The notes under the pieces are model-generated. The model had not been told where the DNA came from, did no database searches, and saw only the letters and a list, made by a program, of their open reading frames with translations. The translations under genes were made by a program, and so were the position numbers. Of a stretch of 64,000 nt of DNA, positions 4,101 through 49,539 are shown piece after piece (within the stretch, counting starts at the first letter, position 1; the number at the start of each line of letters is the position of its first letter). The stretch is from contig JANPYM010000005.1 of the NCBI GenBank assembly GCA_025890175.1, positions 2,665,827-2,729,826 on the forward strand, read 5' to 3'. This DNA comes from Ciborinia camelliae (Eukaryota > Ascomycota > Leotiomycetes > Helotiales > Sclerotiniaceae).

Positions 4101-4770
4101 ACTTTCGCTGACAGTTGACTCATTGAGCAGCGTTTGTTCCCTCTCAAGAAGACTGGGGCCTTCTTCCGGAAATAGCGCCTCATCTCTGAAATCAACCCTT
4201 AGATTCCCAGGTCGATTATTTCTCAGATCCTCACTTGCCACCCCCCTCGGCGCATTTCTCATCATGTACAATTGATCGGCCTCAACCCTCGATTTTGAAG
4301 TTGCCACATTTGCCCTTTGTTGATATTGCTGGGGTACCATATCCCTCGAACTCTCCCTAGAAACCGTAGGCCTCCTCATATTTGTAGGTGTATAGCCTCC
4401 CTCATCCCCATCCCCACCATCCGGAGTCATCACCTCCTTCCCTATCGAGCTCGCAACCCCCTCCGAACCTTCCGCATACCCCATACATTCATGACCATTA
4501 TCCGTACACGTTGAACAAAGCGGGCGTTTACCATCACATCTCGTTTTTCGTTTTCTGCAAGTTCGGCATCTGCATTCAACATTGAAGATTAGCTGGCATT
4601 CTTCCCAGAGTAATTTGCGGGGCCCTCCTCATTTTGCGATTTCCCCCAAAAGGATATACGTACGCAGCATTAACCCTCCTCCTCTTTGCAGGTGGCTGTC
4701 CCTCATTATTCACAAAACGGATTTGCTTTGGCTGTACTCCTCCTCCCCCCACTCCTCCTCCTGCGCTCAT
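1151..4770 (-). CDS. Zn(II)2Cys6 fungal transcription factor with fungal_trans domain
   Basis: A nuclear DNA-binding regulator. Proposed exons (minus strand): 4770-4664, 4569-3559, 3391-2791, 2734-1151, giving about 1100 residues. All phases agree and all introns are GT-AG (94, 167 and 56 bp). The first intron splits the zinc cluster. Joining it restores a basic run followed by CRTCRKRKTRC and CSTC...C, spacing CX2CX6CX6CX2CX6C, a canonical binuclear zinc cluster. The middle exons carry the fungal-specific transcription factor domain (RVPYFRYFGPTAIVPG; LLPVNRLIIHLVEVFF; the ACLLLAYESFG...LWMYLG...A..LGL region; a LDRVIS-type segment). The tail has poly-Pro, an Asn/Gly repeat and ends in Gly/Glu-rich low complexity encoded by a polypyrimidine tract, so the exact C-terminus is less sure. 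The ATG at 4770 is the first ATG; the frame is open further upstream only from a TTG. The RYFGPTAIVPG block recalls the TamA/Dal81-like group, but I cannot name the orthologue. Confidence 0.88.
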
Positions 4771-20692: not shown

Positions 20693-22303
20693 TTACTTGA
20701 ATGCCTTTCCGAACATCAAGACTTGCATTTGATCGTAGATGGACAAGACACCAGCACCGGCAACACCACGGAGAATGTTGGCACCAGCACCCTTGAAGAG
20801 AGACTTAACTCCCTCCTTGGCGATGATTTGACGACCAGCATCCAAGGAAGACTTGTACTTGACGGCCTCACCAGAAGTCATCATCATACGACGACGGATG
20901 GTGTCCAATGGGTAAGAAGCGATACCGGCACCAGTGGTGACGGTCCATCCGAGCAAGAAGGAAGCAAGGAAGTTACCCTCGAGAGGTCCGACGAGGAGAA
21001 CTGGCTTGATGGAGTCGTACATACCGAAGTAAAGACCACGGTAAACGACGATACCGGCAACGGAAGGACCGAAACCACGGTAGAGACCAGCAATACCATC
21101 GGAAGCGAGGGTCTTCTTGTAAACATCGACCAAACCGTTGAATTGACGGTCACCACCGGTCTTGGCGTTCTTGTTGTCGTTGGCAAGACGAGTACGGGCG
21201 TAATCGAGGGAGTAGACGAAGAGGAGGGAGGTGGCACCAGCAGCCTTTAAAATTGTCAGTATGGTCATGGTGGTGAAATTCTTTCAAGATAATACTTACT
21301 CCACCGGAAGCCAAGTTACCGGCCATCCACTTAGCGTATCCATCACGGTCCTTCTTGAAGTTGAACATCGACTTGTAGGTATCACGGAAAGCGAAGTTCA
21401 AGGCTTGTGTAGGGAAATAACGGATAACGTTGGCAGTGTTACCTCTCCATAAGGAGGCGACACCCTCATCTGCGGTGGTACGCTTGAAGCACTCAACGAT
21501 ACCATCGTATTTGCGGTCGAGACGGCCGGTCTTCAACATCTCATCCTATAGAGCCATGGTGTCAGTAAATACTTGGTAAGTGGAATAGAATTATTTTCGG
21601 GCGAATGATTTTCCATATCATGCAGATACGACATATCCAAAGAAAGGAAAAATGTGCGTGACTTGAATCTGTACATATGCACGTACGGATCGAGGTATCC
21701 GAATGAATAAATTCAATGAAAAATCTCCATTATAAACATACCTGGTTTTGGATCAAGAGCTTGACACGCTCGATGGGAGCAGCAGCGGTCTTGGAGACGG
21801 CAGCGGAGACACCACCCACTATCGCACAAATCAGTATCCTGCGATATAAAAAAAACTCCCCACAGTCCATCTCCTTTCCGAATTTTGTGAAAAAGATTGC
21901 AATATTTATCGATTTTCAAGTATTGGAATAGACGTACTCAAGAAGTCAATGATGAAAGGAGGACTATTGAAATATTGTCAGTATCATGGTTAATAGAAGA
22001 TATGTAACGAGCACGGGGGCCAAATGAAGCTATTTGATCGGAATGCCATTGATCGACAACGAAAGCTTTGAGAATATAGATGTAGTCAAAAGAATCATCT
22101 TGATGCCACCACGATAAACCAATTGAGCTTCGTATTTTTTTCGATTCCCGTTCACGTCGTTGTTGATGTGGCATTCCTCTCGGTCCCCAATTCCCCATCG
22201 CAATCACCAGGAAAAAGAGAACCGCCAGCACAGGAAAAAAAGGAGAAGGATCTCAAACTTACACGCCCATGACGGACTCCTTCTTTGGTTGTTCGTTGCT
22301 CAT
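20693..22303 (-). CDS. aac: Mitochondrial ADP/ATP carrier
   Basis: It exchanges cytosolic ADP for matrix ATP across the inner mitochondrial membrane. Proposed exons (minus strand): 22303-22263, 21963-21938, 21818-21742, 21545-21300, 21244-20693; phases agree and the product is 313 residues, normal for the family. The signature RRRMMM at the third repeat ([11 protein letters not shown]) is specific for nucleotide carriers. [12 protein letters not shown] and [12 protein letters not shown] mark repeats one and two. Exon 2 is only 26 bases, encoding PPFIIDFL and flanking split codons, and is needed to join [14 protein letters not shown] to the first transmembrane helix. The first intron is long for this locus (299 bp). 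The others are 119, 196 and 55 bp. Confidence 0.96.
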
Positions 22304-27072: not shown

Positions 27073-27701
27073 CAGGTTAAAGATTGATGTATGATATTTA
27101 CATTTTGGTGGATAGGATAGGATAGGATAGGATATGATAGGGTTGGCGATAAATTCTTGTAATAATTGAGGGAAGGCATGGAATGGAATGGGTGGACAGT
27201 ACAATGAATGGACCTGGCGGCTGGAATTTGCGATGGGCGTTGGAGTTTGTTTACATAATATATCCATATATCCATCCGTTCATTTACAACGGGAGTTTTT
27301 CTGGAATGCGACACCCGCGGGTTTAAGCTGGCTGGTTGGTTGGTTGGTTGCATTTGAGGGTTTGAGGGTTTGAGGGGACGGTGGTAGAACGAACTTTTTA
27401 GTTGGTGGCTTGCTTGCTTGCTTGCTTGGTTTATGATTTATGATGGGGTTCTTCTTTGGTTCTCTCGCTTTTCATTTGGGGGAAGGGGGAAGGGGGAAGG
27501 GGGAAGGGGGAAGGGGGAAGGGGGAAAGGGGAAAGGGAAGGGGGAAAGGGAATGGAGGGGAGGGAAGGATAGGATAGGATAGGATAGGATAGAAAGAGAA
27601 TGTGCAGTTACTACCTATCTATCTATCTACCTATCTACCTACTTACCTATCCAGGTCTTTAGTGATTTAGTGATTTGGTGATTTAGTGATTTTGTTACGG
27701 T

Positions 27702-28318: not shown

Positions 28319-31300
28319 ATGGCCACTCTCTATTCTTTGAAGCGGGCCCTCAAAGAGAAAGCTGCGGAGACATCATCCCAAAGGCAACCCTTGTCCGATA
28401 TACAGTACATCGAAGGTTTCGACACACTTATGCATGGCTCAGAATGGAAGTCTTATGAAGATTTCATCATTCCGCAACTATCGAAGCTGCTATCCCCTCT
28501 CTTCAATTCGCGAACCAATATTTCGGTGCTAGAGATTGGACCCGGGTCTCAGAGCGTACTTGGTCATCTGCCCATTTATCTGAGACAAAAGTTTAGAAGA
28601 TATGCTGCATTCGAGCCGAACATATTGTCTGCTAAAAGATTGGAAGAATGGTTTTGCGATTCCCCGAAATCGAAGTCCCCGCTACCTTGTTTGCAAAGCC
28701 CGCCCGAGATCTACCGAGCCCCTTTCGATCTGAAGAATAACCCAAGCGAAGATTCTAAGACAAATATAATTGATGGCGAGGAACAATTCGATGTCATTCT
28801 TTTCTGTCATAGCTTGTATGGCATGAAACCTAAACATCTATTCATCCGAAGAGCGCTAGATCTGCTTGTTCAAGGGCCAGAGAGTGGAATAGTAATAGTT
28901 TTTCATCGCGACGAGGATCTTGATCTTGATGGATTGACTTCTGATCATACGGCAATTTTCCCTACTGGCACTGTTAGTGTGGTAAACGAGGACGGAATCC
29001 TGAATGCTTTTGCTCCTTTCATCGCTGGGTTCGTCATGAAAGATATAGAGTTGGACATGGCTGTCCGAGGTGAATGGATTAAAATATGTCGGGCCTTGAC
29101 TTGCCATAATGAGACACTTCCAAGTCGTCTCTTATTCAGGGCGCCTCAAAGAATGCTATCGTTTACTCGAGGAGCGATTGCGTTACCTGAACTGGCAGCG
29201 GAGGTACCATTAGCGAGCAGGGGCAAAACAGTCAAAAGTTGGGAGGCTCGATTGCACCAGACTGCCTCAATCATCAGTCCAACAAATATCGAACATGTCC
29301 AAAAATGCATCCAATGGGCTTTGAAATATAAAGTTGGACTGACCGTTCTTGGTGGGGGTCATAGTGGCCACTGTCTTTGGCCTCACGTTGTCTCAGTCGA
29401 CATGAATGCCTTTAACCAAGTACACATTATTAGGTCCAGTAAAGATGCAGGAAAAGCTGATTCTTGCTCTGATTCTCCTTCTTGCATTGTAGCTGAGGCT
29501 GGATGTAAGACGGAAGATATCGTTCGTAAAGGCATGGAGTCGGGTTTAACAGTACCCCTGGGTTCCCGACCGAGTGTGGGTGCTGGCCTGTGGCTACAAG
29601 GCGGCATTGGACACCTCAGTAGGCTTCATGGACTTGCGTGCGATTCCATCATAGGTGCCGTAATAGTCAGTGTTGAATCTGGCCAGGTTGTTTATGTCGG
29701 ACATGTACCAAATGAACATCTACCAGCTGGTGCAGTACGCTCCGAAAGTGAATCCCATCTCTTATGGGCAATTCAAGGCGCTGGGTCCAATTTTGGTATT
29801 GTGATTAGCGTTACTTTCAGGGCTTACCCAGCTCCAACCTATTCGGTTCGAAACTGGGTGCTTCCATTGAAGGACATTACCGAGGCGCGACTATGGCTGA
29901 GCGATTTTGATAAATCTATTGCTAAAGAGCTTCCTCGGCACTGCTCTGTAGACGCATATCTCTATTGGCACACCGACCAGCTACATCTTGGGGTAACCAT
30001 GATCGAATCTTCCACAACTAAACCGACTTTGCAAGCGCGCACTTGTGTCAGTAAGATCTTGGGGCCCGAAAATGAATTTAGGATCGTGGACGGAGTCGAA
30101 TTGTTTGATACCGAAATGTATATGTCCGGGATGCACGGTGGACATGGCGGTGGCAAGACCTCTTCGTTTAAGCGATGTTTATTCTTGAAAAATATCGGAG
30201 AAGTGCATATCGTCGATATCTTGGTGGCAGCTATCCAGACTCGCCCCTTTCCATTTTGCTACCTCCACCTACTGCAAGGTGGCGGTGCAGTTGATGACAT
30301 AGCCTCCGAAGCTACTGCTTTCGGCTGTCGGGATTGGGATTTCGCCTGTATTATTACTGCTGTTTGGCCCCGTGATCAAAATGGAACAGAAGCCGCTCAA
30401 ACTGCTGTTCAGTGGGTTTACAATATCGTCAGGGACTTGTTGCCCTTTTGTAGCGGGGTCTACAGTGCTGATCTCGGACCAGATCCTAGGGATATCGCAC
30501 TGGCAGTTAAAGCTTTTGGGCCAAATTTGCCACGACTTGTCCGTCTCAAGCATAAATTGGACCCGTATAATGTGTTGGCTTACACGTGCCCACTCCCAGA
30601 AATCTCGATGAAACAAAAGCTCATCATTCTTGTCACTGGCGATAACGGCGCTGGGAAGGATTATTGCGCCGATATCTGGGTATCTGAAATCACCAAATGC
30701 ACAAATAGATCGGTACGTTCTGTAAGTATTAGCGATGCCACTAAAAGAGAATACGCGATAGATGTTGGGGCAGACTTCAATCGACTTCTTTCAGACCGGG
30801 CTTACAAGGAGCAACATCGGCCAGCTTTGACGGCATTTTTCCAGGGTCAAGTGCACAAACGACCTCAGTTGCCAATGAAACACTTTCTAAACGTTATTCA
30901 CAATGCTGCCGATATTGATGTGTTGCTGATCACTGGAATGAGAGACGAGGCACCAGTCCCTACCTTCTCACATTCAATTCCAGACTGCAGACTTCTCGAG
31001 GTTCGGGTCAAAGCTAGCCAAAGTGTGCGCGGGATTCGCAAAGGGTGCCATAGCAGCTATGACCATGATGAGACTAAAGACAGGAACAACGGTGGATTAA
31101 AAGTGACAGGATCAAAACATCGCCCCAATCTCATCTTCGATAATGACACAATTGGCAACGAGTTGGCAGAAACATTTGCCAAACAGTATCTCCTCCCTTT
31201 TCTACACGAGGACTTAGAACGACTATACAATATGGTACGTGCAGTACCCGATTTTCCGAGCCCGGGTATTCAGTTTCGCCACGTGCTTGACATCTCCCAG

Positions 31301-31792
31301 CAACGGGGCGGGCTACTCCTGTGCACGTCTCTGCTCCAAACCCACTTCAATGGTGACTGGACAAAATTCGATGCATTGGCTTGTTGCGAGGCCGGTGGGT
31401 TTGTATTTGCATCATCGTTAGGGATGCGGGTTGATGTTCCCTTGGCATTGATTCGCGAATCCGGCAAACTCCCTCAACCTACCATTTCCATCATGAAATC
31501 TCCATCACATATCTCTTCTACGAAAGCCGCCGATCTAAAAGAGAAGAGGTTTGAGATGAACCAGAATTTGGTCCGTGAAGGCTCATCGGTAGTCATAGTA
31601 GACGATGTACTTGCGACTGGGAGGACACTGTGTGCGATGATAAAGCTCCTGGTTGAAGCTGGAGTTCGTGTTGAGAATGTTAGTATTATGGTCGTTGCTG
31701 AGTTTCCTATTCATCGTGGCCGGGAATTTTTGCTCCATCGTGGTTTTGGGGGAGTCAATATTCAAAGCCTTTTGGTCTTTGATGGTGCTTAA
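28319..31792 (+). CDS. Four-domain fusion: methyltransferase, BBE-type FAD oxidase, PMVK-like kinase, APRT-like phosphoribosyltransferase
   Basis: A single uninterrupted ORF of 1157 residues from the ATG at 28319. The frame stays open upstream without an ATG, so an earlier exon cannot be excluded. Residues about 25-260 look like a SAM-dependent methyltransferase (motif I VLEIGPGS at 70-77; FDVILFCHSLYGMK later). Residues about 310-755 form a PCMH-type FAD-binding domain plus C-terminal BBE segment: GGGHS at 345-349 has the usual flavin-linking His, QGGIGHLSR matches the Gly-rich loop, and LKHKLDPYNVLAY is the BBE end. Where many relatives have a second flavin-linking Cys, this protein reads GSRPSVG. 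Residues about 766-965 start with a P-loop GDNGAGKD (774-781) followed by KREYAIDVGADFNRLL and AYKEQHR, resembling animal-type phosphomevalonate kinase. Residues about 966-1157 resemble adenine phosphoribosyltransferase: PDFPSPGIQF and the PRPP motif VVIVDDVLATGRT. Substrate unknown. Confidence 0.9.
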   Translation: MATLYSLKRALKEKAAETSSQRQPLSDIQYIEGFDTLMHGSEWKSYEDFIIPQLSKLLSPLFNSRTNISVLEIGPGSQSVLGHLPIYLRQKFRRYAAFEPNILSAKRLEEWFCDSPKSKSPLPCLQSPPEIYRAPFDLKNNPSEDSKTNIIDGEEQFDVILFCHSLYGMKPKHLFIRRALDLLVQGPESGIVIVFHRDEDLDLDGLTSDHTAIFPTGTVSVVNEDGILNAFAPFIAGFVMKDIELDMAVRGEWIKICRALTCHNETLPSRLLFRAPQRMLSFTRGAIALPELAAEVPLASRGKTVKSWEARLHQTASIISPTNIEHVQKCIQWALKYKVGLTVLGGGHSGHCLWPHVVSVDMNAFNQVHIIRSSKDAGKADSCSDSPSCIVAEAGCKTEDIVRKGMESGLTVPLGSRPSVGAGLWLQGGIGHLSRLHGLACDSIIGAVIVSVESGQVVYVGHVPNEHLPAGAVRSESESHLLWAIQGAGSNFGIVISVTFRAYPAPTYSVRNWVLPLKDITEARLWLSDFDKSIAKELPRHCSVDAYLYWHTDQLHLGVTMIESSTTKPTLQARTCVSKILGPENEFRIVDGVELFDTEMYMSGMHGGHGGGKTSSFKRCLFLKNIGEVHIVDILVAAIQTRPFPFCYLHLLQGGGAVDDIASEATAFGCRDWDFACIITAVWPRDQNGTEAAQTAVQWVYNIVRDLLPFCSGVYSADLGPDPRDIALAVKAFGPNLPRLVRLKHKLDPYNVLAYTCPLPEISMKQKLIILVTGDNGAGKDYCADIWVSEITKCTNRSVRSVSISDATKREYAIDVGADFNRLLSDRAYKEQHRPALTAFFQGQVHKRPQLPMKHFLNVIHNAADIDVLLITGMRDEAPVPTFSHSIPDCRLLEVRVKASQSVRGIRKGCHSSYDHDETKDRNNGGLKVTGSKHRPNLIFDNDTIGNELAETFAKQYLLPFLHEDLERLYNMVRAVPDFPSPGIQFRHVLDISQQRGGLLLCTSLLQTHFNGDWTKFDALACCEAGGFVFASSLGMRVDVPLALIRESGKLPQPTISIMKSPSHISSTKAADLKEKRFEMNQNLVREGSSVVIVDDVLATGRTLCAMIKLLVEAGVRVENVSIMVVAEFPIHRGREFLLHRGFGGVNIQSLLVFDGA

Positions 31793-34700
31793 GATGATGA
31801 GAATTTTCGTCATCATCATCAGCTTACACGTATGAAGGCTAAGATGTGGGGTAAATTATTATGGTCACGTTTCAATGCCGTGACAAGTTTGTAATCTTAA
31901 CGTCCAAGTAATAATTCAGAAAATCTATTATAATATTTCGATGATTTTGCCGGTAACTCGTACTTAATCGTTTTCAAGATTCTCTAGAGAAAAAGTAAGA
32001 AATAATTGCATTGCCTAGAGTTCGCCAACTTTGCTTGAGACATCCCCTATCTAATAGACACCCCCCAACGCCCTAACAAAAAATCACAATATAAATCAGT
32101 TCTCCGGTCACGACTTTATGTCACATTAGCTCCCGGTGTATAGGAAGATGAAATGTTTCTGATGTTTGTATATAAAGTTTAAAAGTTGAGGCACTGGGGT
32201 GAGGCCCTGGGGTGAGAGGCATAGGGGATTTCTATGGCTATTATGATAGGAATTCGATAGTGATAATAAGTTATAGTTAAGATACATTTATGGCAGTGAT
32301 TATAGAACAATGAGAGTGAAAAATACTGCCATTCCGCATTCTTTTTATTATATATATAACATACCCATATATATAACCCAGCGAGTTTAAAAACACGAGC
32401 TTAATTACCAACACCAGACCCATACAGTGAAATGAACAGAAATTATTTTACTGGAGGTTATAGTGGGAATGAGAGAATTTATATACTAGGGAACACCCAG
32501 TTGTCAATTCCCTATATTTTGTAGTAGGTAGTTTGATATTAAGAAGTAGCATTCATGCGCGAATATTGAATCGTGCAGTTGTCACGTAGTGTAGTCTTAG
32601 GTAATAAAAATCTATTGGAAACTATATAAATCTCTGTCGCTCCCTGAACTTTCAAATTCATTCATATAGTATTCCACTCACTATACACAAACTGTACAGA
32701 TAAGGGAAAGATACTTGAGACACCATCTTTTTCGGACTTGAAGTTTGGATAAAAGGGAACGCTTAGTGAAGGAGTGTATGGAAGATATATTTTCAGATTG
32801 GAGGACTGGTTATTAGGAGATGAACGTTTTGATGGCAGTGATAATATTCTAATAGGGGGGAGGTGATAATATTGTATTACAACATTCAAAAACATTAATA
32901 ATAATTAAGTACCTAGTTTCATATACTAGTGCCTGACGCTTCAAGAATAGAATTGCGACATTTACTAACAAAGCTTCGAAGCTAAAGCATATCACGAAGA
33001 CTCAATTCCAAACTCCAGATCTATAACTGTGCTAGCTAAGGCCTTATGTGACATCATGGGGAGGGGTATGAAAGGGGGAAACGGAAAGTATTTATATACT
33101 TAAGTTGGAAGTTGTATCAGTTTATCTTACTTACTAGGTACCAACAATCGTGTAATCTCAGATTAGTACTGCTTTTCTATCAACCTGAACTTCAAGTGGC
33201 ATATTAAATAACTATAAAATAAACATGTTTATCTGCTTTAATCTATTTCACCGTACAGAACTTAGCTATTATGGGATTTAGAATTGATGGTGGCAGAGAT
33301 GGAAATTGTAAACATGTAGAGTATATGAGGCTTAAGGGGAAAACAATCAAAGTAGTCTGAGTTTGAAGTTGAAATTGGGAGATAGTAATAAACAAGACGT
33401 TTATGATAAAGTGACATCGTGACTGAAATAATGGCAATAATAAGGCAAGATATAGCGATACTAACCGACTCTACCTTTGCATACCTAAGTAGAGACAATA
33501 ATAATTCCTCTCCATCACGTTTCCCTTCATATAATAGAATCAAGTATCAAAAGTCAAACTAAATAACTAGTAGCTCTATCCGTATATGATTCTACTCAAG
33601 CTGATAACCGGTCGAAGGTTTCAGTTTGGATGATTGAAATGAATCCTCCATATTGATGTTATTGTTCTATTCTTGTATGTAGGGTTGAGCTATGTACAGT
33701 GGCAGTGTGGGATTATATACTACGGGATACGGGATTAGCGTTTCCATCAGGTTCTTTGGGTTGTTTTAAGCTATCTTGAAGATTTATAATAAGCTTTCAG
33801 TAAGACTTTACATCATCTGTCGTCCCAAAACACTCTCCATCATGGTTAAAAATGTATAAATACTTCGCTATCCGGCCATTGCCCCGATTCTTTCAAAAGC
33901 TATCACTAAAGGATACTACATCAATAAATGGAGTATTCTAACTCTTTCTCATCATAATGCTATACAAGAAGGTTTTTCTAGAGGCTAGGGGAGAGTTCAG
34001 GGTTTGGATGAACTTGGAACTGGAACTAGGAGAGATATGTTCAATAGTATGGATATAGAATCGGTAATTTTATAGAAGATTAGTTTGACATCAATGTTAG
34101 TGAATAATTGAGGTTTCATATGGATTTAGTTCAGTGAGATGACGGATGTAAGTGACGTTAATAAAGATGACGATCAATGGATCTAAAAGATGACAATAGT
34201 GGAGACAAGAAAGGAGAGTGACGGCCACCAATGAATGGGTTTATCTACAATGTTGAGAGTTGGAACATACTTGGGCACCTAAAGCCAAGAACAGTATACT
34301 CGATCATCATTAAACAAAATACGGATAGCTTCTCCAACGGCAATGAACGAGAATGTATTGGGAGAAAGATAGGAGTTTATATACTTCTAAAGAAACTAAT
34401 AGCATTAGTTCGATAAATAGTTAGATGTCAACTCAAGTAATATACTCTCATCAAAAATAATAGCTCTGCATGCTTGCTTACCTAAGAACACCTGATTAAT
34501 TATCAAAACATTAATTTTTGTTGCGGTCCTTCTTTACCAATGAATTTTTCGGTTCTCTAACCGACAGAAAATCTATTGGTTTTGTTGGAAGGGGATGTGG
34601 ATTGAAGATCTAAATTGGGATTGTTTATACTTGAAACAAAATAGAAGAGTTTCGAGACGGGAACAAAAACGATCTCTTTATTTTATTATATTCGAATTAT

Positions 34701-34870
34701 GTGATTATATATTTTAATATTATATTTTAAAAATATAATATATATAAATTATATTATAAATATAATAAAATATTATAAAATAATATATATAAAATATAAA
34801 AAAAATATTATTATAAAAACTTTATACAATAAATTTAATATAATTATATATTATATATTATTATAATAAA

Positions 34871-35048
34871 CAAATCTATAAAGTTTGAAACGTATTTTTT
34901 TATTTTTAAAATATTTATAATAATTATATATTAATCTTAAAAAAAAAATTATAAATAAAAAATAAAATTAAAATGTAATATATATTAATATATAATTATT
35001 ATAAATATTTTAAAAATAAAAAAATACGTTTTAGGTTCTATAAGTTTG
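34871..35048. mobile_element. AT-rich foldback element relic with 65-bp terminal inverted repeats
   Basis: Arms 34888-34935 and 34984-35031 are perfect 48-base reverse complements (inner ends ATTAATATATA/TATATATTAAT, outer ends AAACGTA/TACGTTT) around a 48-base spacer. The next 17 bases outward on each side (34871-34887, 35032-35048) also correspond but with about seven differences, all transitions. The block sits within a 350-base island of nearly pure A+T. No coding capacity. It is consistent with a miniature inverted-repeat element altered by repeat-induced point mutation. Confidence 0.65.
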
Positions 35049-38000
35049 CCCATTATAGTATAAGCAAGGTCCTGAGCTAATACTACGCTAGTCTAGTCCC
35101 TATGTGACCTGTTAAATCCACCCCTGTTACTCCGACCAATACTCAGATTATTATGCTTACATAACGCCCCCTAATACCTTGTAGTATCCCCCGGGCCTCC
35201 AGAAAGTTTCCAAATAGGAACGTAGGTAGAAATACCTCCTGCTTTTCCTTTTTTGAGGAAGTTCTTTCTGGGAAAAGAATACCAAATCTTCTCAAAATAT
35301 AGAACAGGACAGGACTTGATGTGAACAGTACTTTATATGTATTTTAGACTAGATATAGAGCGAGGAGGTAGTCTTGAAGAGTGGAAATTGTATGTTCATT
35401 TTCATTATGTGTAGCATTGCTTTTTCTTTTTGAGGATAGCATGGTAGTGACGAGAGACAGTGATGGAAGTTCTCTAGTGAATGACAAAAAGAATTCGTTG
35501 TCCAAATAGGTAAGAATACCAATTAGTTAGGTGTTCTTATCTCTCGGTATGATGGCAATTCAGATGGCATCTAAAGTGTCTAATCTGGAAATTTTGAAGC
35601 TAAATTCACAATCCGGACTTGGTTCAAAACTCTTTATCTTCTAAATAGCCAGGTTAGCCAAGGGCCAGGTGCCAGCATGTTCATGGCTCACGCCCTACCA
35701 ACTTTCTCCATGTTCTCTCCTCTGTGAATTCTCATACACAAAAATCTTCTACGCATTAGTATAAATAACCACCCACGAAGAACCATCCGACTCTTAGCTA
35801 TAAACATACCATTCGCTTTTCAAACTTACACAGGAGTGCCAACTTGTTTCAATGACCGAAACGGCCTGTTCTCAACTCCCAGGGACTTGACAAAATTTGA
35901 TATGATTACTGGGTTTCATGGGCGTGCTAGTCGAGCAGAAATCTACATCCTAGATGGTATGAATGAAGTATATGAATAGTGATGGTGAGAATACGGAAGG
36001 ATGAAATGATCATGATACTAATGTTCCTATCAGTTGACGATAATGAGAAAGGTGATGTCCATCAACGAATAATCAACTTTCTCCCCCCCCCCCTATTTTT
36101 GCTTCCAGGCGGTAAAGTCGCCATACAATTGCATAAAAATTTAGTTCGAGACTCCATGGGTTCACAGTCTTAAAGGCTTCGAACTTTGCACCTTTTTCTA
36201 TTGATGGAAGGGAATTGAAAGGAGGGATTTTTGGCGTTATATACTATTACTATTTCTTCAAGCAATTCCGAACAAAGCTACATTGAAATAAAAAATGAAA
36301 CCCTATTTTCACGGTTTTCTATCTACCAAGAATGTAAAATATTGCATAATGAATAAATCAAAAAAGTGGCCGCGCCGCCGCGAGCTATATAAATGATTAA
36401 CTCTATCTTCTTTCTAGTTCGCAATCAAAAGTCGAGGATTTACCACAGTTGAAGCTTCTTTAGGAGACTTCCAACCATCAGAATAAGAAGAAATTATAAT
36501 TCAAATCACATAGGAAGTCATACTTGGGAAGTTGGGAGTGTGTTTGTCTATTTCGATTTGTCAATCGGGATTTTGATATGAAAAATGACAGTGACTTGAT
36601 AGTGAAACTTAAACGATTGAAATAAACAATCTGCCACCGCTAGGTGGTTTACCTTACAACACTCTTCGTTTCAAGACGAATCCCACCTACAGCTGTTCAT
36701 GCTGGTTGACGGAATGTATATCATAGAGTAGCTTGGGAGCGATGAGTTTACTTATATACTTCTGGCATGTATATTCTTTCGGTACTCTCATGCATTGTAA
36801 GTCTTACCAAATTTACCAGCTTATTATTTGCACTCACTAGTTTCCACGGGCTCTTAGCTATATAAAGTCTCCGATCTATCTACTTATCAAAGATAAAAAC
36901 TTTCATGGAGAATTATAGAAAAGTACAGGGTGTGATAGTCGGTATTCGAAATTAGAAAGAAAAACAAAGATAGTATAAAAGAAATAGTACAATCAGTTTA
37001 TCAGAAATCAGTTTATCAGATGTAAGATATTTCAACAAACCGTTTTCTCTAGATTCCACAGTCACAGAAGATCGCTAGTGGTAAATCACAAGTAACAATT
37101 CCTTTCTTTTCACCATCAAAAAGTTCCTTGATGTAAATATTTCGTTGAAAAAGCAACAGCAATCATAAACCCATAGGGTGACTCAAACTTCTTTTCACCT
37201 CTCATCTATATCAGTAAAATAAATTTATTTACCTATGGATTCAGAAATGTTGAATTTTCCGGCTTACATATCCGTCAAGTTATTCTCCATTTGGTTCTTG
37301 CTAACCTTTCATCTCTTATGAGATTATCCGCTTTGGTCTCTAAATAAGATGTATATTTATATAGGTATCTAGATATCCAACACGAATTAGTCTTGGCTAA
37401 AGGAAAAATAACAGTGTATTCTAAAGACACTTTTTAAATTGGCATCCCAATTTTTGTGTGAAACAGCGTGACACTTGGGCATCACTCAATGAATGGAAAG
37501 ATGAAGATCATGAGATTCTCCGGGATTTGATAAATTAGATTATAGATATGAAGAACATCAGAAGTGTATGTTGATAAGACGTATCATTATTTTGCCAGAC
37601 ATATTTCTCCTTTTCTTGTTTGATGGTGGAATCGTTGAGATAATGACAGAGATATAATCTACAAGTATCAAGAAATTCCCCCCTCCATTTCAACTAATCT
37701 CTATTCTTTTTATCCCTAAGTACTGCTCTCTTTTGATTAGAAATATATCTCGAAGTCTACAGTAACAACTCCATCAGTGATTCTTTTCTTAGCCGTGACA
37801 CATTTGATGGTACTACAGATGGTTATTAAAGCTTTATATACTTAACATTGGGATCAAGCTAACTATTAAAATTTAATGGGATTACAAGGTGGATGATGGG
37901 AGGTTCCCAGGTGAGGATAATTCAGGAATTCTGGCCCCGGTCTGAGTTTGTGGGTGAATGATATTATCCTATGTTTTGAGAGAGGAAAGTTTTCTAATAG

Positions 38001-39479
38001 TTAACTATATAAAGTCCAATATTCCTTTCCTTAATCCCCCCAAAACACGTCCAGAATCGCCATGGTGGCGTTCTTATGGGGTCTGCTGTGCGTTTGTGAG
38101 TGTATCACGATGTTTATTGTTATAGGTTTATGAACATAGATAGATATTAGGAGCATCAAAACTCTTTTGCATGGGTGTATAATATTACTTCCTTCCACTG
38201 GCAACAAAATAGAGGTAGATGATCATGAAAATATCTCATATTTATCAACAACACGACGAGCGACAGCACTTGTGTACAGGAGACAATAATAGTTCAATAC
38301 CTACCACGCAGCTTCTCTCCCTCCCCCTTCCTCCCCAATTTCTTCTACTCCTTGTATATTTATCTTAGTAAATGAATGCACCAAACTCAGGAAGTGTTTT
38401 GAAATTTGACCTGATGCCTGGATATATCTAGGCCATTTCAAAAATATTGCGGTGTATGGAGAGAGTAGATGAAGTCTTTTATATCACTGACATTATTACT
38501 GATGTCTGCAGGACCTTGTTACTCGAAAGGTAATCTTACTATAGGTAAAGCTATGGAAATAGAATGAACAATACTCTACAATGCAACGAATATTTTCCCC
38601 ATCTCCAGAGATCAGAAGCAATAATACCTCTATGTATTTAGAGACGAGCCCACAAAAGACTAGATTTAGTAGATATATAAATTCTCCCATTTCCGAAAAG
38701 CTTTTCAAGTTCTCCATCACACAAATGGAAAGCGAGCTGAACTTATGTCATGTGATATTTCCAGATTTTTAGAATACATACTCAATAATATCATTGAAAA
38801 AAGAAGATGCGTTTCAGAAAGGGCAAAAGTAAAGTTGTTGAATGCTAGGTTGCGGAATTGAAGAGTTGAGATTTTAGTGAGAATGACTGACCGGTTGGTA
38901 GTCAGCTGAACCGTGACAACAACAAAAGAAATAGTGGCTGACTTGTGCAACCATGAATCTCCTGTTCCTTTTGTGGAGAATCTTGTTTCTCCCTCAGAAT
39001 GATGAGGGGAGGGACTTCCCAATAAGTGCTATCTCATATTCCTACTGCCAATCTCCAGCAATCTTCATTCATATATTTGCAGTGTGGAGGAAATACCTGG
39101 TACTAGGTGCTTTTATATGAGATAAAATTGCACCGGCTCCGACCTCCAGCTAAGAAAGTTTGATTTGATAAGAAAGAAGTGAATCATGGTCGAAACCCGG
39201 AGATACCTAGGGATGGCCTGGATTCAAGATGAATAAATCTAGATGAAGGAATTATTGATGGATCTAGAGACAGGAAATTACTATATAAAGGCATCACTAG
39301 TTCAAGATTATCGTTCTCTTAATGCTAGTACATCGAACCAGATTGAAATGCCTAGGGGCAAGCGACTTTCAGTGGCTTTCAGCTCTCAAATCTAGTTAGA
39401 GGTTATATATCAATGCAAGAATGCTTTATATATCACCAAAATGACTTAACTTGGATGTTACAGTCAGGGACAAGCAAAC

Positions 39480-40080
39480 CTCACCTAAAAAATTTCTTTT
39501 TTTTAAAATTGATTTTTTTTTAATATAAAATATACAGATTTTTAAACTGATTCTAATAATATAAAAATATTTTTAAAATTCCATTCGGAATAGCTTCAAA
39601 AATCAAAAAAACAAAATCCCAAAATCTGAACTGTCGTTACGTAATCATCTGATTTATAAGCTATACTAGATCGACGACACCATTTATATATAATCTAATT
39701 ATATCTCTCGATTCGTCTAGCTTTCCTTTATTATTCTATACTATATAAATTCTAAAAAATTCTAAAAAATTAAAAACTAAATAATATTATATAATTAACT
39801 TTTTCCTTTTTCCCTTTTTGAAAACCATTACCCTTTTCAGCTAATCACTTCGAACGATAGTATTTCATCATATACAATATATAAATTTGAACGATAATTC
39901 TAATCCTTCAACTGTCGTCACGTGACGCTCTAGAATTTCCTGTATATTAAATATTAAATCAAATATATATCGAATTGAAATTTTTATTGCATATTTGAAT
40001 TCCTCGTATTAATCTATATATTTTGAACTAAAAAAAATTAAATTTAAAAGCAAAATAAATTTAAGTAAACTTTGCTTGTT
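39480..40080. mobile_element. AT-rich island, probable mutated repeat relic
   Basis: About 600 bases of very AT-rich sequence. AACTGTCGTTACGTAATC near 39630 and AACTGTCGTCACGTGACG near 39909 are diverged copies differing mostly by transitions. The structure suggests an old non-coding transposon copy. There are no ORFs, and boundaries are approximate. Confidence 0.4.
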
Positions 40081-41502
40081 ATCGACTGTAGTTATTCCCG
40101 CATATGATGAAAGTGAGACGCGATACAAATCAATAGCAATAATTATATTAAACTTCCGGATTCCATCGAACAACCGGAACAACCAAAAGAAAATTGTGTG
40201 ATCCCCATCTTCCCAATCAGTTTTATTCTTTTAGACATCGACTTCAAACATGAACTACGAGCCGCCAACTTTCAATCCTTTCATCGGATTGTGTGTACAG
40301 ATGTTAGCCATTGGTTTCAGCTCAATCGGAAGGATGGCATGATTTATATACCCCATACAAAAAACTGGGAAAGAGCTTGTAAGTAGGTATGTACTATGTA
40401 GGCATTGGAGTACAAACTTGAAAAGGCGGGGCTTATAGAAAAAAGACAGACAGTTTGGATATTCAAAATAATATACCTATCTAGTTAACAAGGACATACC
40501 CACCTCAAAAGTATCTCTTTATTCGGGACTCTAATACTATTTATCTGATAGAATTAATATAAAAGGTATTTCCACTCCTCCATTGACTATCTTATCCCCA
40601 CAATCAGCCAAAACAACATCCTGGGTATCGTTTGAGGATGAAAGATTTCAGAGTCAAGGATTGAGGTTTAGGCCTGGAATGTCAGAGGTTCTTTTTAATT
40701 CTATTTAACCAGAGATGGTGGTGAAGATGCATTATCGATGACGGTGATGATTTTTCTTCTTGATCAATGGTAATAACGGGATGTTTACTACGACGACGAT
40801 GATTTAAATGAATGAGTAGCGTGAAGAATTTTTCCCCGTGCGGCAATTTCTCAATGGATTCATACAAACCGAGGCACTTGGATGGTTTCGGTTTCTTCTT
40901 TCTAGATCTTGGTGGAGAGCTCACCCAGACGAATGACGTTACAGATAGATTGAAGTTGTTGTTTGTGAGGCATTGCCTTAATATAAAAATTATTAATCGT
41001 ATATACCTGGGATGACCAGTAATACGGTAGGAAGGAAGTACTAGGGTTCTGCCCTTATATGCTACTCCCCCATACCCTATGCGGCATAGCTTACCACGTG
41101 ATCCCTGGTCGTGTGACCGCAAACCATGTGACCTGATTCCCCAATAAAAATATATATTTTTATATTAACATATCCCAGTGATCAATGGGCCGTCATACCC
41201 GGCTCGGATAATTCGTGTTTACTAACCAATAGGGATCCGCGTGAACCATTTCTTCGCATAGACTAATGGGACTTAACCGATCGGACGCCCAGGGCTAGTA
41301 TATTTGGATAGAATACATTTCAGGCTATATGGGTCTTGCCGACTCTAGTATTTTGAATCACACTTCAAGGCCAAGTTTAATAAACTGATGTATTCCGACA
41401 TAAAAGTAAACGTACCTAATGTAATAAAAAGGTAGGGAGAACGAAAATAAAGCCCATCATCAACAACTAGGCTACCTGTACAACACCCATCAAATGCGAT
41501 TT

Positions 41503-44500
41503 CTATAAAACATCGAAGAGGAACCGATACCCCGGCTCAACCATTTCCTCCCAATCTCTCATTCCCGGTCTCAAATACAAATCATGAATATGATCCTCTC
41601 CCTCTAATGGTAAGAAACCACATGTAATATTATGGTTCTTCAATTCCGCCACGAACTTCTCGGCATCGGCGAACGGCGCCACTTGATCTCGGGTGCCATG
41701 GATAATGAACGTCGGGACGTCGTAATTTCCACAACGGAGTTGCGCGAGAGGACTAATGGCGTGGATTTGTGCCTGTGTGAGTTGGTCAAGCGTTTCGGAT
41801 AGTGTGGCTCCAGAGCGAGGTAGTCCATTTAGAAGGAGTGGGAGACCAGTGCCCTCTTTGAACATCGAGAGAAGAAGCTCGGAACGTGGGTCTCCCGGAC
41901 GAACCCAACCGAGATTAGTATTGTCACCGATGGCAGAATCATAGTTTGTGATCTAGAGTTGAAGTTAGTATACAGTATATTGTAAGAAACAAGCTCTCCG
42001 GCATTGATGTATCGCCGCTGTTGATATAAGGGCTGGTGGGATTTTTAGAAGAGGGGCAAACATACGGGCTTCTTTGAAAGAGCAGAAATTATCCTTTCCA
42101 TACTCATTTTTCGGGCTGGGAGTTTCGAGGGACGATTCATACCGAGCTCTATTTCGTTCAACCATATCAGTATTAATTCAAACGCATTGAGCAGCTAGAC
42201 GACTGACCTTTAGATTCAAAATCTACTGGCGAGTAAAAGCTTAGCACTGCAGTTGGTGGTGTCGTCTTGGCTAGCTTTGCGGTCCAACCTATCGACATGG
42301 CTAAGTGGCCTCCAGTCGACCAACCAATTACCACCACTTTGCTCTTATCTACCAATAACCCATGCCTAGCAGCGATCTGTGGAAGCACGTTTTTGCACCA
42401 TTGATAAGCATCATACACATCCGTCATGGGTCCGTCAACCAGATTGATCTCGGGGCAGAGCCGGTAGTCAATGCTCACTGGGAGGTATCCATTGGCCAAA
42501 AGATATTGCGTCTGAATTGGCCGAACAGCCTTTCGAGAGAGTGTAATATGGCCTCCGCCGTGGATCATGAGAGCTGGACAATGTATCAGTCATATTCCAT
42601 AGATTGGCGGCAAAGACTTATATGCGTACCGACTGGCATGGGCGATGGAGGGGTTGTTCGAGGGAAAAAAACATCTGCCTCGATTGAAAGATCACTCACC
42701 TCTTTATATACAATAGTCTCTTGGCGATATGATGCATCCCGACTGCCGACTGTGTTTGGAAATGCCTGTATACTCTCAGGTATGTCCCACTGCTTGCACG
42801 ACGCTACAAGCAGTTGTTGGCTGTTAGCTTCTGGCGCCAAGCCTTTAGAGTAGTCGGTTGAGCTAAATCCCGCTTCTTTGAATGTCGACATCCAGGCCTC
42901 AGCTGGTTGAAGAGGGTAGGTTGTTTTCCCTTCAGCTAGCCACCAGCCGTCAAGCAGGCCAAAGCAGATATCATACCAATCTATAACACGAGTAACTTCA
43001 GAGAGAACAATAAAACCACCTTGCGTCAAAGTCTCTCTGAGTCTGCTACACGATGCAGTGCGGTTCGTCGTTGCATGTACACAATTGGCGCTGATTACAA
43101 TGTCAAATCTATTGCGGAAGTCGCTCGAGACATCCTTTTCCAAGTTAAACGTGGCGAATTTGATCCATGGATATTGCTGGAACTTATTTTTAGCCTTAGC
43201 GACCAGGCTGGATGACATGTCCGTGAAGGTATATTCAACAGCAATCCCGGAGGAATCTAGCGCTTTTGCAAGTCTTTTTGTCGTTCCCCCGGTACCTGCG
43301 CCCACCTCCAGAATCTTCAACGGTCGGGCGTTTCGTAACCCACGAGTCAAGCTTGTTATGAATATCACCAGCTGCTCTGTGAGTGTCGACAGCATTGGAG
43401 ACTGAGCATAGAAATTTTCCATTATTTTCAGAGACGCGGGGCTTCCGAACATGATGGACACAGGGTCTACTGTGCCACTCAAATAGTCAGCGAGTTTTGG
43501 ACCGGTAAGGCTGATCAGGTTTGTTTCGTGCTCATAATCCGGAAATTTCTTTCGAAACCCTTCGACCAATTGAGATGATGGCCTCGTGTCGATAACACGG
43601 CTGCCGCGCTTGAGGCTACCTGTTTGATCTCTGAAGATAACACCATGTTTTTGGAGGATCTCCCAAAGCCTGTTGACGAGTTTATCGTATTTTTGTGGTA
43701 GATGTGGTAATTGCGAGACATTGCTTCCTGGAGGACAATTTGCAAGATCGACTCCTAAAGCACCAAAACCCTCGACTATATATGCGAGTAATAGTTCATC
43801 CTGAAAAGGCGCTACGTCTGACCAGTAGTTACTAAATCTCTGCATTTTTGCAGAGTCATCGAAATGGGCATCAGCTAATTTTAATGCACTGAAAGGGTTT
43901 GGCAAGTCGAGGTTCTCATCGTGTTCTGATCTGGTAGTCGAGTTGATATTTCCATTTTGAACAATATTTTTGATGATATGTCGTTTCTGGCCCTCGGGAT
44001 TATTGATGTTCAAACGTGTCATGAGATCTTTTACCGTACAATCCAGAAGGGTTTCCTCGAAACGTACAGAAAACGATTCTTCCAACTCTTGTTTCAGATC
44101 AACTAGCGATAGCGAATCGATTCCAATATCGGGTAGTGCATCACCCTCTTTGATATCCTCAAGTTTAGCCCCTGAGATATCAGCGAGGATCTGCAAAAAC
44201 TTTTGATAATGTTGTGCAGATTCACGATCGTCTGAGTCGTGTAGGGAGCTTTTGGTCTGCTCGGTAATTGGGCGTAGCATAGATTCAGTTTGGCTGGGTA
44301 GCATGTTGCCCAAATTCAGACCATCAAGACGCTGATAAAGGTCACTCAGATTGCTGGTGACTAGATCATCGGGAGATATCACGAACTCAAACCTGGTCAA
44401 AAGCTCTCCAACAAGCTCAACCGATGCCAGAGAGTCTAGTCCCAAATCTACAAGCATTATATTCGTAGGTATATCTGATGCATTAGCTCCGGTATACTCG

Positions 44501-47500
44501 GCTATCAAGTCTCTTAAGCTTGCCATATTACTATCCGTCACAGGAGTAATTGTGTCGGGCGTATTTACTCCACCGCCGGTCGTGCTCGATGCCTCTGAAG
44601 TTTTGATTGAGGTCTGACGTGGAAGATCCCCAGCAGGTTTCGAATTCGTTGAATCGAGAGCTTTTTCCAGCTTTGAAATTGGTAACTTTGCAAATCGACA
44701 GCCACAAAGCATCGCCACTAGACCGCCATCCTGTGAAGAAACAAAAACATCTCCCATGGGTTGCCCATCCTGAGTAAAGCAGAATTTTGCGTAGACGCGC
44801 CAATCCTTTGCATCTGTCATGTTGCAAGCCGGTGAAATAACAGTATGCTCTATGCCAACCATAACCATAACTTCTTCCTTTGATACGGCAGAGCTACTGT
44901 TCATCAGTAATCCGACAACCTGGATAAATGCATCGATAGTGACGGTATCACAAATAAGCCACGATGTGCTCTCTTCTCGACTTGGCTGATCTTCTGGGAC
45001 ACTGATTGTGGCAATTGCTTCCCACTCATCCATCTTCACTCTCTTGATGCCTCTGAAAAAAGGTTCATAGTCAACAACCAGATGGAATAGACCATAAGCG
45101 CGTTTTGACATTAAGTTTTCTGCGTTTTCGTCCTTCTCCAATTTCTCGATAGGCCCAGCAATAAGTCGCTGAAAAGTATCAGGCAACGAGTCAGGAAGCA
45201 GGGCAATGGCGCCACTGGCATGAAGTACTTGCTTTGGCTTTGTAGTATTTGGGTTTGAAGTACAGATAGTAAATCTCCACGACCTTTCGGCTCTATCTGT
45301 CTTGACCAGCTGCATCACAACCTCACCCTTCGGATAAAGACCAAGAGCAGCGTGGAAATCAAGCTTGTCGAAAACAAGACTTTCATTTTTGATGTCTCCA
45401 ATCAAAAGCTGGATAGCCATCACGACGCATTCCATATACATGGATGCTGGGCATAGGGGCCTTCCTCGAACTGCATGGCCACCAACAATCTTTGAGAATC
45501 GTTGGCTTTCAGTGTTCACCAAAAACTCCGCAACTCCTGGCTGTTCGAGAATTGTTGCTCTTATCGTAATCAGTTGAGGGAGATATCGTAATGGCTCTTG
45601 TAATTGCGTATCTTTTGCAACGTTTGAGCACGTTTCCTGCATTTCAATGGTCCTGTCGATATTTTCTCGCCAGTGCAGAGTTCTTTCAAATTGATATGGC
45701 GGCAGCCATATCTGCCTAAAATCTGGCGCCAAACTTGGCAGGAAGCTCCAATGAGTTAAGGAGATGCCGCTTTCCCAAAGCGCTGATACAGTAGCCGAAA
45801 TCTCCTCGGCGGCATTTCGATCATTTTGTATTCTTACGGCATGGAAGGTCGTCATTTCTGGGGTTTCAAATGCTCTCTTCGCCATCGCTATAATTGGTGT
45901 ATTAATTCCTGCTTCCAGCCAGATGGATGATCCTAAAGAATTTTCGAGTCTTCGTACAGCGTTGGAAAAATAAACGGAGTTCCTCGTATGACCCGAAACA
46001 CTGTAGCTTTTCATAGAGGAGAGACGCTCAGCAGTGCACAGTTCCAAAGGAATTTTGGGCTCGTTCCATTGAAGAGACTTAGCAACATCAGTCAATTCAT
46101 CCAGTATTGGGTCTACAAGTGCCGAATGGAAGCCATGACTCGTGCGGACTCGCTGTGATTTGATATGTTGAAAGTTTGGTTCTGTTCTTATAAGTTCTTC
46201 AGTAGCTTCGATAATTGCCAACGTGCCTGCCACAACCAAAGATGTTGGCGAATTGTAACATGCAATTTCAATATTCCCATTACAGCTAGCTTGCAAGCGG
46301 GTAGAGATAGTTTCAAATTCATTGGCGTCGCAGTGTAAGAGTAACATGGCACCCTTTTCCGATCCCCATTTGTTATGAATTAGGTTCCCTCGAGAGGCAA
46401 TTAGAGTGATACTGTCAGACAGAGACAGAACTTCTGACACTGCCAATGCTGTAAGTTCCCCCAGACTGTGACCGATGATAGCGCTGATTTTCAAGCCGGC
46501 ATCAATCCAACACTTACCGCATGCGTATTGCATGGCAAAGATGCTACACTGCAAAGTAACAACATCATCTATGGACTGTGTTTGGAAGATGGCGGGAATG
46601 ATAGAACGAAAACCTAAACTCTTTATTTGCTTATCGCATGCGTCAATGTACGATCGAAATCCCGGGTATGTATCATAAATGGTTTTGCTCAAAGCGACTT
46701 TGTTGTCGCTCTGTCCACTGAAGCAAAGCACTATAGGCTTGGATGATTTGTGAAACTGCCTAAAGCTCGACGGATTGATAGAGCCCAGCTGGCCGGCCAA
46801 ATCTTTGGTGTTTTTTGAGGTGATGCTAACATAAAACTTCTGACGTTGTCTTTTCTCGTTCAAAGTATACGACACATCGCGAATGTTTATCGTGTTAGAC
46901 TCCTGGCGCAAAAATTTGCTCAACACCCGAGCTTGATCGAGAAGGCTGTTCTGCGAAGCCGCACTGAGAATGACTGGGTATAGCATACTAGCATCCTTGA
47001 CATGGTGCTTGTGTTTCTCATTCTGTTCATTTTGTGGAAGTTCGCAGCAAATAAGAGCACAATTGGACCCAGCTGCACCGTAGCTATTGACAAGAGCGGC
47101 GCGAAGCGGCACGTTCCAGTCAAGAACGCTCCGGCTGATGTCAAGATTGTCTGGTTTCAGGCTGGAAATTTTTGGATTCAGTTGCTGATGATTTGCCTGC
47201 GGTGGAATTTTCCCATGCTTTATCATAGCAAGAACCTTGATTAAGCCAGCAACACCTGCTGCGGTTTCACAGTGACCAATGTTGCCTTTAATGGAACCGA
47301 TTTGAACGGTATCTGGTCTAGAGGAACTGCCAAAGATAGATCGGATGCTTTCTATCTCTAAAGGATCTCCAGCTTGAGTGCCTGTTCCATGAGCTTCAAC
47401 ATAAGTTACCTGCTCTGGCTGAAGACCGGATTTTTCAATCACTGTTCGGTATAATGCTTGTTGTGTAGCCGAATGAGGAATAGTGATGGATGCAGATAAT

Positions 47501-49539
47501 CCGCCTTGATTAGTTGCGACGGCCGGAATGACACCCAAGATTTGATCATTATCACTCAAGGCCTGCTTAAGCGTCTTTAAGACCACAAGACCCGCACCAT
47601 CAGAGCGACAATAACCGTCGGCAAGCTTGTCAAATGGCTTGCACTGACCAGTGGGGCTCAAGAAACCTGCTTTGCCCAAATCAAGGAAGTTGTTAATCCC
47701 GGTTATGATATTGATACCGCCAGCTAGAGCCATGTTGCACTCTCCAGACTGGATTGCTTTGCACGCACGATTGATAGCTACCAATGAGGATGAACATGCT
47801 GTGTCAATTACCTCTGATGGCCCGCACCATCCGTAATAATGACTCAGTCTGCCGCAAAGAAATGCTCGAATGGTGCCGGTGGAAGTGTATGCAGTTGGAC
47901 TATGCGCATTGGTATTATCTAAGTATTCCACGAAGCTTGCCCCAATGAAACAACCGACATTGTCTCCTGTAGCTTTATCTCCTATCTCGCGATTATGTGT
48001 AGATAGATATCCTGAGCTGTCTAACGCTTCGAAGGATAGCTCCAAAAGCATTCTCTGTTGAGGATCCATATTAGCCGCCTCTCTAGGGTTAATTCCAAAG
48101 AAGGAATTGTCGAATCTTTGGACGTCATCAACGAAGTTTCCATAAAACTTTCGCTCATTTACAAAGCTGCCGCTTTGAGATGCCCGGTAACTTCCATGTA
48201 AATCAAATCTGTCTTTTAAAACTTCCTGGTGACAATCTGTACCATTGGCAATGAGTTTCCACAATTCGTCGAGATTGTTAGCACCTGGGAGACGGCAAGA
48301 AGCTCCGACAATTGCAATCGTACCCTCTTGAAGGAATGAGGTATTCGAAAGGGAATTAATTTGGGACGATGGCGACTTGACTTTCCGAATGAGGCTATGA
48401 ACTTCGGATTTGGTGGCCTGTAGACGCTTTCTATGAAATGGCAACATTGGAACGCAATCATTCAAACCAAAGACGACGAATTTATGCCCAACTTTTTTCG
48501 ATGCACTCAGGTCCTCTGCGACTTCATTGAGAAGCGTAAACCAATCGCATTTCGATGCAAGAATGGTGGTGACAATCTCTGCTGTCAATGAGCCAGAGCA
48601 AAGTCGCTCCCCAGAAATGTTTGATCTGACTGGAACCTGCAGCATGGAAGCATCCGGAAGCTTTAGACACGGTACATCATCACAGAGACGGCAAAGCTCT
48701 GCGGCGAGATCCTTGTTTTCCGGATTGTGAACTTTGCCTCTGACATCCATTTTTTGAACTTGAATCCCCTGCTCTTGTGCATAGACAAACAGTTCATCCA
48801 GTCTCTTTGCAGGGCCGACGATGCTAATAGATTTTGGATCTGTGATAGCTGACACATGTGTCTACATGTAAAGTTAACTCAATTCTCTCGTAATGAGATT
48901 TTTGGGGTTACATACTTCAGGGAAAAGGCGTGTAAGATCATCTCCTTGGCCCTCATACTTGAGTCGAAAAGCCAGAGTTGTTGACCCTGCTCCCCTAGTG
49001 TCGTCGGCTGCTTCGCCGTATGCACCAACACCTAAGAGTACCCGTAAGACGATAGCAGTGTTTTGCACAACCTCCATCTCATCCTGCGCACAAGCTATAG
49101 CCATCGCTGATGGCAGTCCGCCGCAATACCCTTGCAAGCCACCAGCATCCTTAAGCAGATCTAGAAACTCGGAGTGTGAAATTCCATGAAATTCGAGATA
49201 ACGCAAGTACTGTCCAATCTGAAGGATGGCCAAGAGAGGCAAGGCAACAATGCCGGACCGGGCCGCAGCGAGTTGACTAGACTCGCCGCTTGTCGCCCAG
49301 CTTTTAAGCATGCCGACCAATTCAAGACCTTGCCACATTTCCCTAACGTCTTGCCTGGCATTGGCGAAGATTTCCCAAAACATGTCTAAATCGGAGGCCG
49401 CCTGTAAAAGTATTTTACCATATTCATTTTCGCTGAGGAAAATATAGAGACCAGTGAGATAATCCTCATCCGGGGCTCTACTTTGAGGGCAAAAGAATGC
49501 AGCAGACAGCTCATGATCAGAAACGCGATTCATGACCAT
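41503..49539 (-). CDS. Non-reducing methylating polyketide synthase (SAT-KS-AT-PT-ACP-ACP-CMeT-esterase)
   Basis: An iterative type I PKS making an aromatic C-methylated polyketide, probably of the methyl-orsellinate type. Proposed exons (minus strand): 49539-48916, 48861-42630, 42573-42208, 42148-42066, 41952-41503; introns 54, 56, 59 and 113 bp, phases agree, 2584 residues. Domains: SAT with GYCGG (Cys about 139); KS with DTACSSSL (Cys about 564), EAHGTGT and GNIGHCE (His about 699 and 738); AT with GHSLGE (Ser about 1007); product template with GGHAVRGRPLCP (His about 1337) and DTVTIDAFIQ (Asp about 1518); two ACPs, LGLDSL (Ser about 1685) and IGIDSL (Ser about 1791); C-methyltransferase with EVGAGTGGTT (about 2060); and an alpha/beta-hydrolase release domain with HGGGH, GWSTGGH, GTRDQV and EDHIH. 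No reductive domains. The order matches PKSs of mycophenolate and dimethylorsellinate pathways, with one extra ACP. A divergent reductase gene lies 1.1 kb upstream. Confidence 0.95.

Follow-up and report, generated by a model that had tools for sequence, protein, structure and literature searches.

A putative four-domain methyltransferase, oxidase, kinase and phosphoribosyltransferase fusion in Ciborinia camelliae

Can methylation, flavin-dependent oxidation, phosphorylation and phosphoribosyl transfer be combined in one fungal protein and, if so, what might that protein make? This question is raised by an open reading frame (ORF) at positions 28319..31792 (+ strand) of a 64,000-nucleotide stretch of the Ciborinia camelliae genome (contig JANPYM010000005.1, positions 2,665,827 to 2,729,826), referred to here as the window. 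The ORF is single and apparently intronless and encodes 1157 amino acids with four catalytic-type domains: a class I S-adenosylmethionine (SAM) methyltransferase, a flavin adenine dinucleotide (FAD) oxidase related to the berberine bridge enzymes (BBEs), a P-loop kinase and a type I phosphoribosyltransferase (PRTase). The fusion is real and it is unusual. Its chemistry is predicted from the domains alone, and the favored reading, with a probability of roughly 0.4, is that of a single multifunctional fungal enzyme that would make a methylated, oxidized nucleotide-type metabolite.

Gene structure and coding evidence

The frame runs from an ATG at 28319 to a stop at 31792, 1157 codons without an internal stop, and an in-frame TTG lies 15 bases 5' of the ATG. 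Given the base composition of the fusion ORF itself, the chance of so many stop-free codons is approximately 2e-27. Another long open stretch in the window, of 2091 codons, belongs to the polyketide synthase (PKS) described below. Codon usage was scored in the three forward frames using the PKS ORF as the reference and positions 31800-41000 as the background. The annotated frame is best in all four domains (0.22-0.30 versus 0.08-0.20 bits per codon), although another frame scores higher at residues 290-310 (0.60 versus 0.41) and 900-960 (0.33 versus 0.24). The GC content at third codon positions is 0.43-0.49 along the whole ORF. Pfam matches were scored twice, once in the whole protein and once with the domains as separate pieces, and all five reach their curated cut-offs when scored as pieces. 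A first-pass annotation, made from the sequence alone, had placed four domains in this order in one frame; Pfam recovers all four in the same order and the codon bias agrees. Codon bias and profile matches rule out a chance ORF, and an assembly join is ruled out by the preference for the same frame in each of the four domains.

A search for fungal intron patterns yields three overlapping candidates, all beginning at 30412 (71, 78 and 95 nt). Only the 78-nt candidate (30412-30489) keeps the frame, with the loss of approximately residues 699-724, and it is probably unused, because the removed part falls within sequence that aligns with the oxidase EncM. In-frame introns are possible in this genome, since its own adenine phosphoribosyltransferase (APRT) gene appears to contain one. 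The fusion gene is read here as intronless.

Methyltransferase and oxidase domains

The methyltransferase domain (28472..28960, + strand; residues 52-214) has a Rossmann motif I, VLEIGPGSQ (residues 70-78), followed by AFEPN (residues 97-101). It matches Methyltransf_23 at borderline scores (27.1 bits over residues 52-187 in the whole protein and 30.2 bits over residues 52-214 as a piece; cut-off 27), and a sequence search of the PDB with this domain gives no real match (best E-value: 0.66).

The oxidase has the conserved domain FAD_binding_4 (PCMH; 29267..29692, + strand; residues 317-458; 49.7-50.7 bits, cut-off 26.4) and ends in a BBE C-terminal motif (30509..30580, + strand; residues 731-754). 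This tail is borderline, scoring just below the cut-off of 20.6 in the whole protein (20.3 bits) and just above it as a piece (21.5 bits). The closest PDB relatives are 6yjo (PCMH-type), 6-hydroxy-D-nicotine oxidase (6-HDNO), EncM and other PCMH/BBE-type oxidases, which have the PCMH FAD domain and the GGH histidine in common with the fusion oxidase. This histidine, His348 of GGGHS (29360..29362, + strand), is the expected covalent FAD anchor according to the sequence and alignments. In bicovalent BBEs, a His and a Cys are the two covalent FAD anchors. Here the His is kept, but residues 415-421 read GSRPSVG, without the Cys. The top PDB match, 6yjo, keeps the Cys (GSCPGVG), whereas the glycine-rich loop of 6-HDNO (GMHPKVG) lacks it, as does that of the fusion oxidase. 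The earlier label of "BBE-type flavin oxidase" is correct for the PCMH/BBE domain and the His, but does not extend to the Cys of bicovalent attachment. Unlike the 6-HDNO/EncM-type oxidases, this one is embedded in a four-domain protein.

Kinase domain

Residues ~766-955 (30614..31183, + strand; the outer limits are our own reading) constitute a P-loop kinase domain of the phosphomevalonate kinase (PMVK)/deoxynucleoside monophosphate (dNMP) kinase type. Its P-loop, GDNGAGKD (30638..30661, + strand; residues 774-781), aligns with those of both PMVK and phage dNMP kinase. The domain matches PF04275 (P-mevalo_kinase) at 81.3-85.2 bits over residues 772-887 (cut-off 33.8). Scored as a piece, it reaches 31.3 bits against TIGR01223 (animal PMVK equivalog), where the cut-off is 188.15, and 31.9 bits (E-value: 1.8e-7) against PHROG_139 (phage dNMP kinase). 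The PDB PMVK 7xnd matches at an E-value of 3.8e-4. The P-loop GKD and the YKEQ.R stretch are common to the fusion kinase and animal PMVK, but the basic P-loop residues of 7xnd (GKRKSGKD, here GDNGAGKD) and its Arg pair (DIRR, here GMRD) are lost. Because the PMVK equivalog and phage dNMP kinase profiles score about equally and these 7xnd residues are missing, PMVK is treated here as a family label and not as a statement of substrate; the earlier description "PMVK-like" is apt for the fold family, but not for PMVK proper.

The dNMP kinase of Kuravirus ES17 aligns with most of the domain, from the P-loop through the LIF..DTI tail (45/199 identical residues, 23%), and the motifs GxxGxGKD, DRx[YW]KExxRP and the LxFxxxTI tail are common to the two. 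Residues 888-955 align with the tail of the phage dNMP kinases and so probably belong to the kinase rather than forming a linker. A tblastn search of 50,697 phage records with the kinase domain returned 41 matching records at E-values up to 10; the best 15 of these comprise dNMP kinases (6), ATP-binding proteins (4), hypothetical proteins (4) and an exonuclease (1). A passage of PMC10653934 counts 871 proteins related to a bacterial dNMP kinase, one of which is annotated as "phosphomevalonate kinase"; this hints slightly at closeness between the two families.

The domain could instead be a kinase that truly acts on phosphomevalonate, or on a mevalonate-like phosphate, and links isoprenoid to nucleotide chemistry, for example in a prenylated or cytokinin-like purine. 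The 85-bit match to PF04275 and the 7xnd match with its conserved YKEQ.R argue for this, but we consider it improbable given the shortfall against TIGR01223, the lost basic and Arg residues, and a separate ERG8-type phosphomevalonate kinase gene in the genome (contig C12, 3649434-3650902). The latter is matched in three pieces (181, 64.6 and 62.8 bits). None of them reaches the 377-bit cut-off for the whole protein, probably because the gene is matched piecewise. Pfam, run over parts of the window, also gives no hit there to a prenyltransferase, IPT-type or LOG-type family, which leaves the cytokinin-like product guessed at in the first-pass annotation without support.

Phosphoribosyltransferase domain

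The C-terminal domain (31247..31789, + strand; residues 977-1157) begins with PDFPSPG and has the conserved domain Pribosyltran (72-76.5 bits over residues 991-1127; cut-off 26.3). PDB APRTs match it with E-values as low as 1.3e-19. The loop predicted to bind phosphoribosyl pyrophosphate (PRPP), VVIVDDVLATGRT (31589..31627, + strand; residues 1091-1103), aligns with that of the APRTs, and PDFPSPG and IRESGKLP are kept; fold family, PDFPxPG, R-x-x-GKLP and PRPP loop are all common to APRT and the fusion PRTase. The RGF and EYG (catalytic-loop) motifs both have roles in APRT. In the alignments, EAGGF (31388..31402, + strand) stands in place of the APRT motif [D/E][A/S]RGF, with Gly for Arg, and the EYG segment is replaced by SPSHISSTKAAD with a 9-residue insertion alongside. 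By contrast, the APRT of Sinorhizobium has both motifs, as does the separate C. camelliae APRT (contig C21, 3047877-3048260; DARGF, RKRGKLPGPT and KEYG kept). Nine curated APRT models are found among the best 25 of 40 families, and the domain reaches the cut-off of none of them (nearest: 105 versus 125 bits).

Both C-terminal assignments of the first-pass annotation, which had proposed a Pfam check of them, score far above their Pfam cut-offs, and its broad idea of phosphoribosyl and kinase chemistry is supported by the domain matches. "APRT-like" is justified by the fold and PRPP loop, but APRT proper is not, with RGF and EYG lost and the models missed. Because the PRPP loop is kept and the APRT motifs are altered, the domain may use PRPP with a changed acceptor. 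Because separate APRT and ERG8 genes are present, the fusion protein probably does not serve the cell as its APRT or sterol-pathway kinase; a duplicated housekeeping gene is ruled out on the same grounds.

The same changes raise the prospect that some of the domains are catalytically dead and serve as sensors or scaffolds, for example that a PRPP-binding PRTase regulates the oxidase and methyltransferase in the manner of PurR. The loss of RGF and EYG, the insertion beside the EYG segment, weak matches of the PRTase domain to PurR repressors and the weak methyltransferase all fit this explanation. It is nevertheless rather unlikely, as the P-loop Lys, PRPP loop, IRESGKLP, FAD-anchoring His and methyltransferase motif I are all present.

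Related systems

A precedent for the C-terminal half is Cns3 of Cordyceps militaris, in which we take both a nucleoside kinase domain and a HisG domain to reside. A figure legend for the cordycepin/pentostatin cluster describes a nucleoside kinase at the N-terminus and a HisG transferase at the C-terminus, and Cns3 takes part in pentostatin biosynthesis (passages of PMC11188397). With both domains, Cns3 would be a fungal kinase and phosphoribosyltransferase that serves purine nucleoside natural products. The likeness is one of domain description only: the Cns3 transferase is HisG-type, whereas that of the fusion is type I and APRT-like, with Pfam giving Pribosyltran and no HisG family. The passages of PMC11188397 on the cluster do not name an oxidase or methyltransferase with Cns3, whereas the fusion has both.

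A possible relative comes from Aspergillus sydowii, where the neighborhood of AsSULT is a putative cluster whose product is not known; the cluster holds a phosphomevalonate kinase (IPR005919) and an FAD-linked oxidoreductase (IPR050416) (passages of PMC11677658). The text lists them as genes without stating whether they form one protein, and it mentions no PRTase or methyltransferase, both of which the fusion has. A gene of this locus may be a relative of the fusion gene, and the fusion is possibly not unique, because PMVK and FAD-linked oxidoreductase share this cluster. No description of the four-domain order was found in searches of open-licence PMC papers, judged from listings and selected passages.

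Proposed chemistry

The proposed route for the fusion protein is as follows. The PRTase would use PRPP to attach ribose-5-phosphate to an acceptor that resembles a base but is probably not plain adenine. The resulting nucleotide would receive a second phosphate from the neighboring P-loop kinase, which is of the phosphomevalonate/dNMP-kinase type. In the N-terminal half, FAD held via one His would carry out a two-electron oxidation of the substrate with O2, and the methyltransferase would methylate that substrate with SAM. The oxidase-methyltransferase half might modify the nucleotide or a partner, either half could come first, and intermediates would be handed between the fused domains. The nucleotide reading is favored because the kinase aligns with a phage dNMP kinase, because the PRPP loop is intact and the APRT motifs are changed, and because there is a kinase-phosphoribosyltransferase precedent in the cordycepin/pentostatin cluster. 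A bolder form, in which a near-complete pathway to a nucleotide-type natural product lies within one polypeptide and the kinase and transferase were recruited from housekeeping substrates, is more doubtful.

Several observations weigh against the nucleotide reading. The methyltransferase is borderline by profile and has no PDB relative. For the kinase, PF04275 scores 85 bits, far more than the dNMP kinase profile, which leaves a phosphomevalonate-like substrate conceivable; the PHROG_139 match spans only 64 of 342 model positions, and the phage tblastn matches are weak (best E-value: 0.2). Single-sequence AlphaFold models were unusable, with a mean predicted local distance difference test (pLDDT) score of 30.6 and 31.2. 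In the parts of the window scanned with Pfam, no nucleoside-pathway family is matched, and a PKS is the closest biosynthetic gene found.

This non-reducing PKS (41503-49563, - strand) has SAT, KS, AT and PT domains (the last with DH-type matches), two ACP stretches and a C-methyltransferase. An alpha/beta-hydrolase at 41503-42589 adjoins it and may be its esterase part. BBE-type oxidases and methyltransferases often tailor the products of such synthases. The oxidase and methyltransferase of the fusion could accordingly act on the PKS product, with the kinase and PRTase phosphorylating and phosphoribosylating that product or playing a regulatory part. The presence of the synthase and hydrolase downstream lends this some appeal, but it is an unlikely explanation of the fusion as a whole: the two genes are on opposite strands and are separated by ~9.7 kb without a Pfam match at an E-value of 0.01, GC content is 25-39% in 1-kb blocks from 32 to 41 kb, and on the far side of the PKS the sole Pfam match in 49.4-57.5 kb is CENP-X. 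Upstream of the fusion gene, no ORF at 25.3-27.1 kb reaches a Pfam cut-off. A tight cluster that includes the fusion gene is not evident.

Should the fusion act as a nucleotide-modifying enzyme, it would give this fungus a compact route to a modified nucleotide and would add to Cns3 a further kinase-phosphoribosyltransferase fusion in fungal small-molecule biosynthesis. Fungal annotations of "phosphomevalonate kinase (IPR005919/PF04275)" may then signal nucleotide rather than isoprenoid chemistry.

Copy number and distribution

The C. camelliae genome (46.2 Mb, 27 contigs) was scanned for further copies. The whole protein has nine matches: a full-length one at its own locus and eight confined to a single domain (one APRT and seven FAD oxidases). 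PF04275 has one match, the fusion gene. FAD_binding_4 has at least 45 matches and Pribosyltran at least 10, including the fusion and one match below the cut-off; both counts are lower bounds, and exons are counted. Single-protein queries, which reach close relatives only, found no relative of residues 1-765 in prokaryote genomes and none of residues 766-1157 in prokaryote species genomes and IMG/VR. With the kinase-PRTase half, a plasmid tblastn search matched 99 records, none with 80% query cover; no bacterial kinase-PRTase fusion is found among the best 15 of the 99, which start at query position 150 or later and mainly cover the PRTase. Some long fungal proteins annotated as "FAD binding domain protein" may share the whole sequence, in which case the fusion would be a conserved but uncharacterized arrangement in ascomycetes.

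Other features

Upstream of the fusion gene, positions 27114-27615 contain AGGAT-type repeats and GGGGGAA-type runs. Downstream, positions 34001-35060 are very AT-rich (GC 25% in 34001-35000, and AT-rich near 34.7-35.1 kb) and contain a 77-nt inverted repeat that is 86% complementary. Elsewhere in the genome, a diverged 5.8S rRNA copy (contig C12, 671681-671832; 85 bits) is the better of two matches among the 39 of 1350 candidates that were scored, a sample in which a clean copy may be missed. Within the window, pieces of a Zn2Cys6 transcription factor and of a pyridoxal phosphate-dependent decarboxylase lie at 2746-4628 and 5641-6315 (- strand), and the best stretch of a mitochondrial carrier match is found at ~20996-21244 (- strand).

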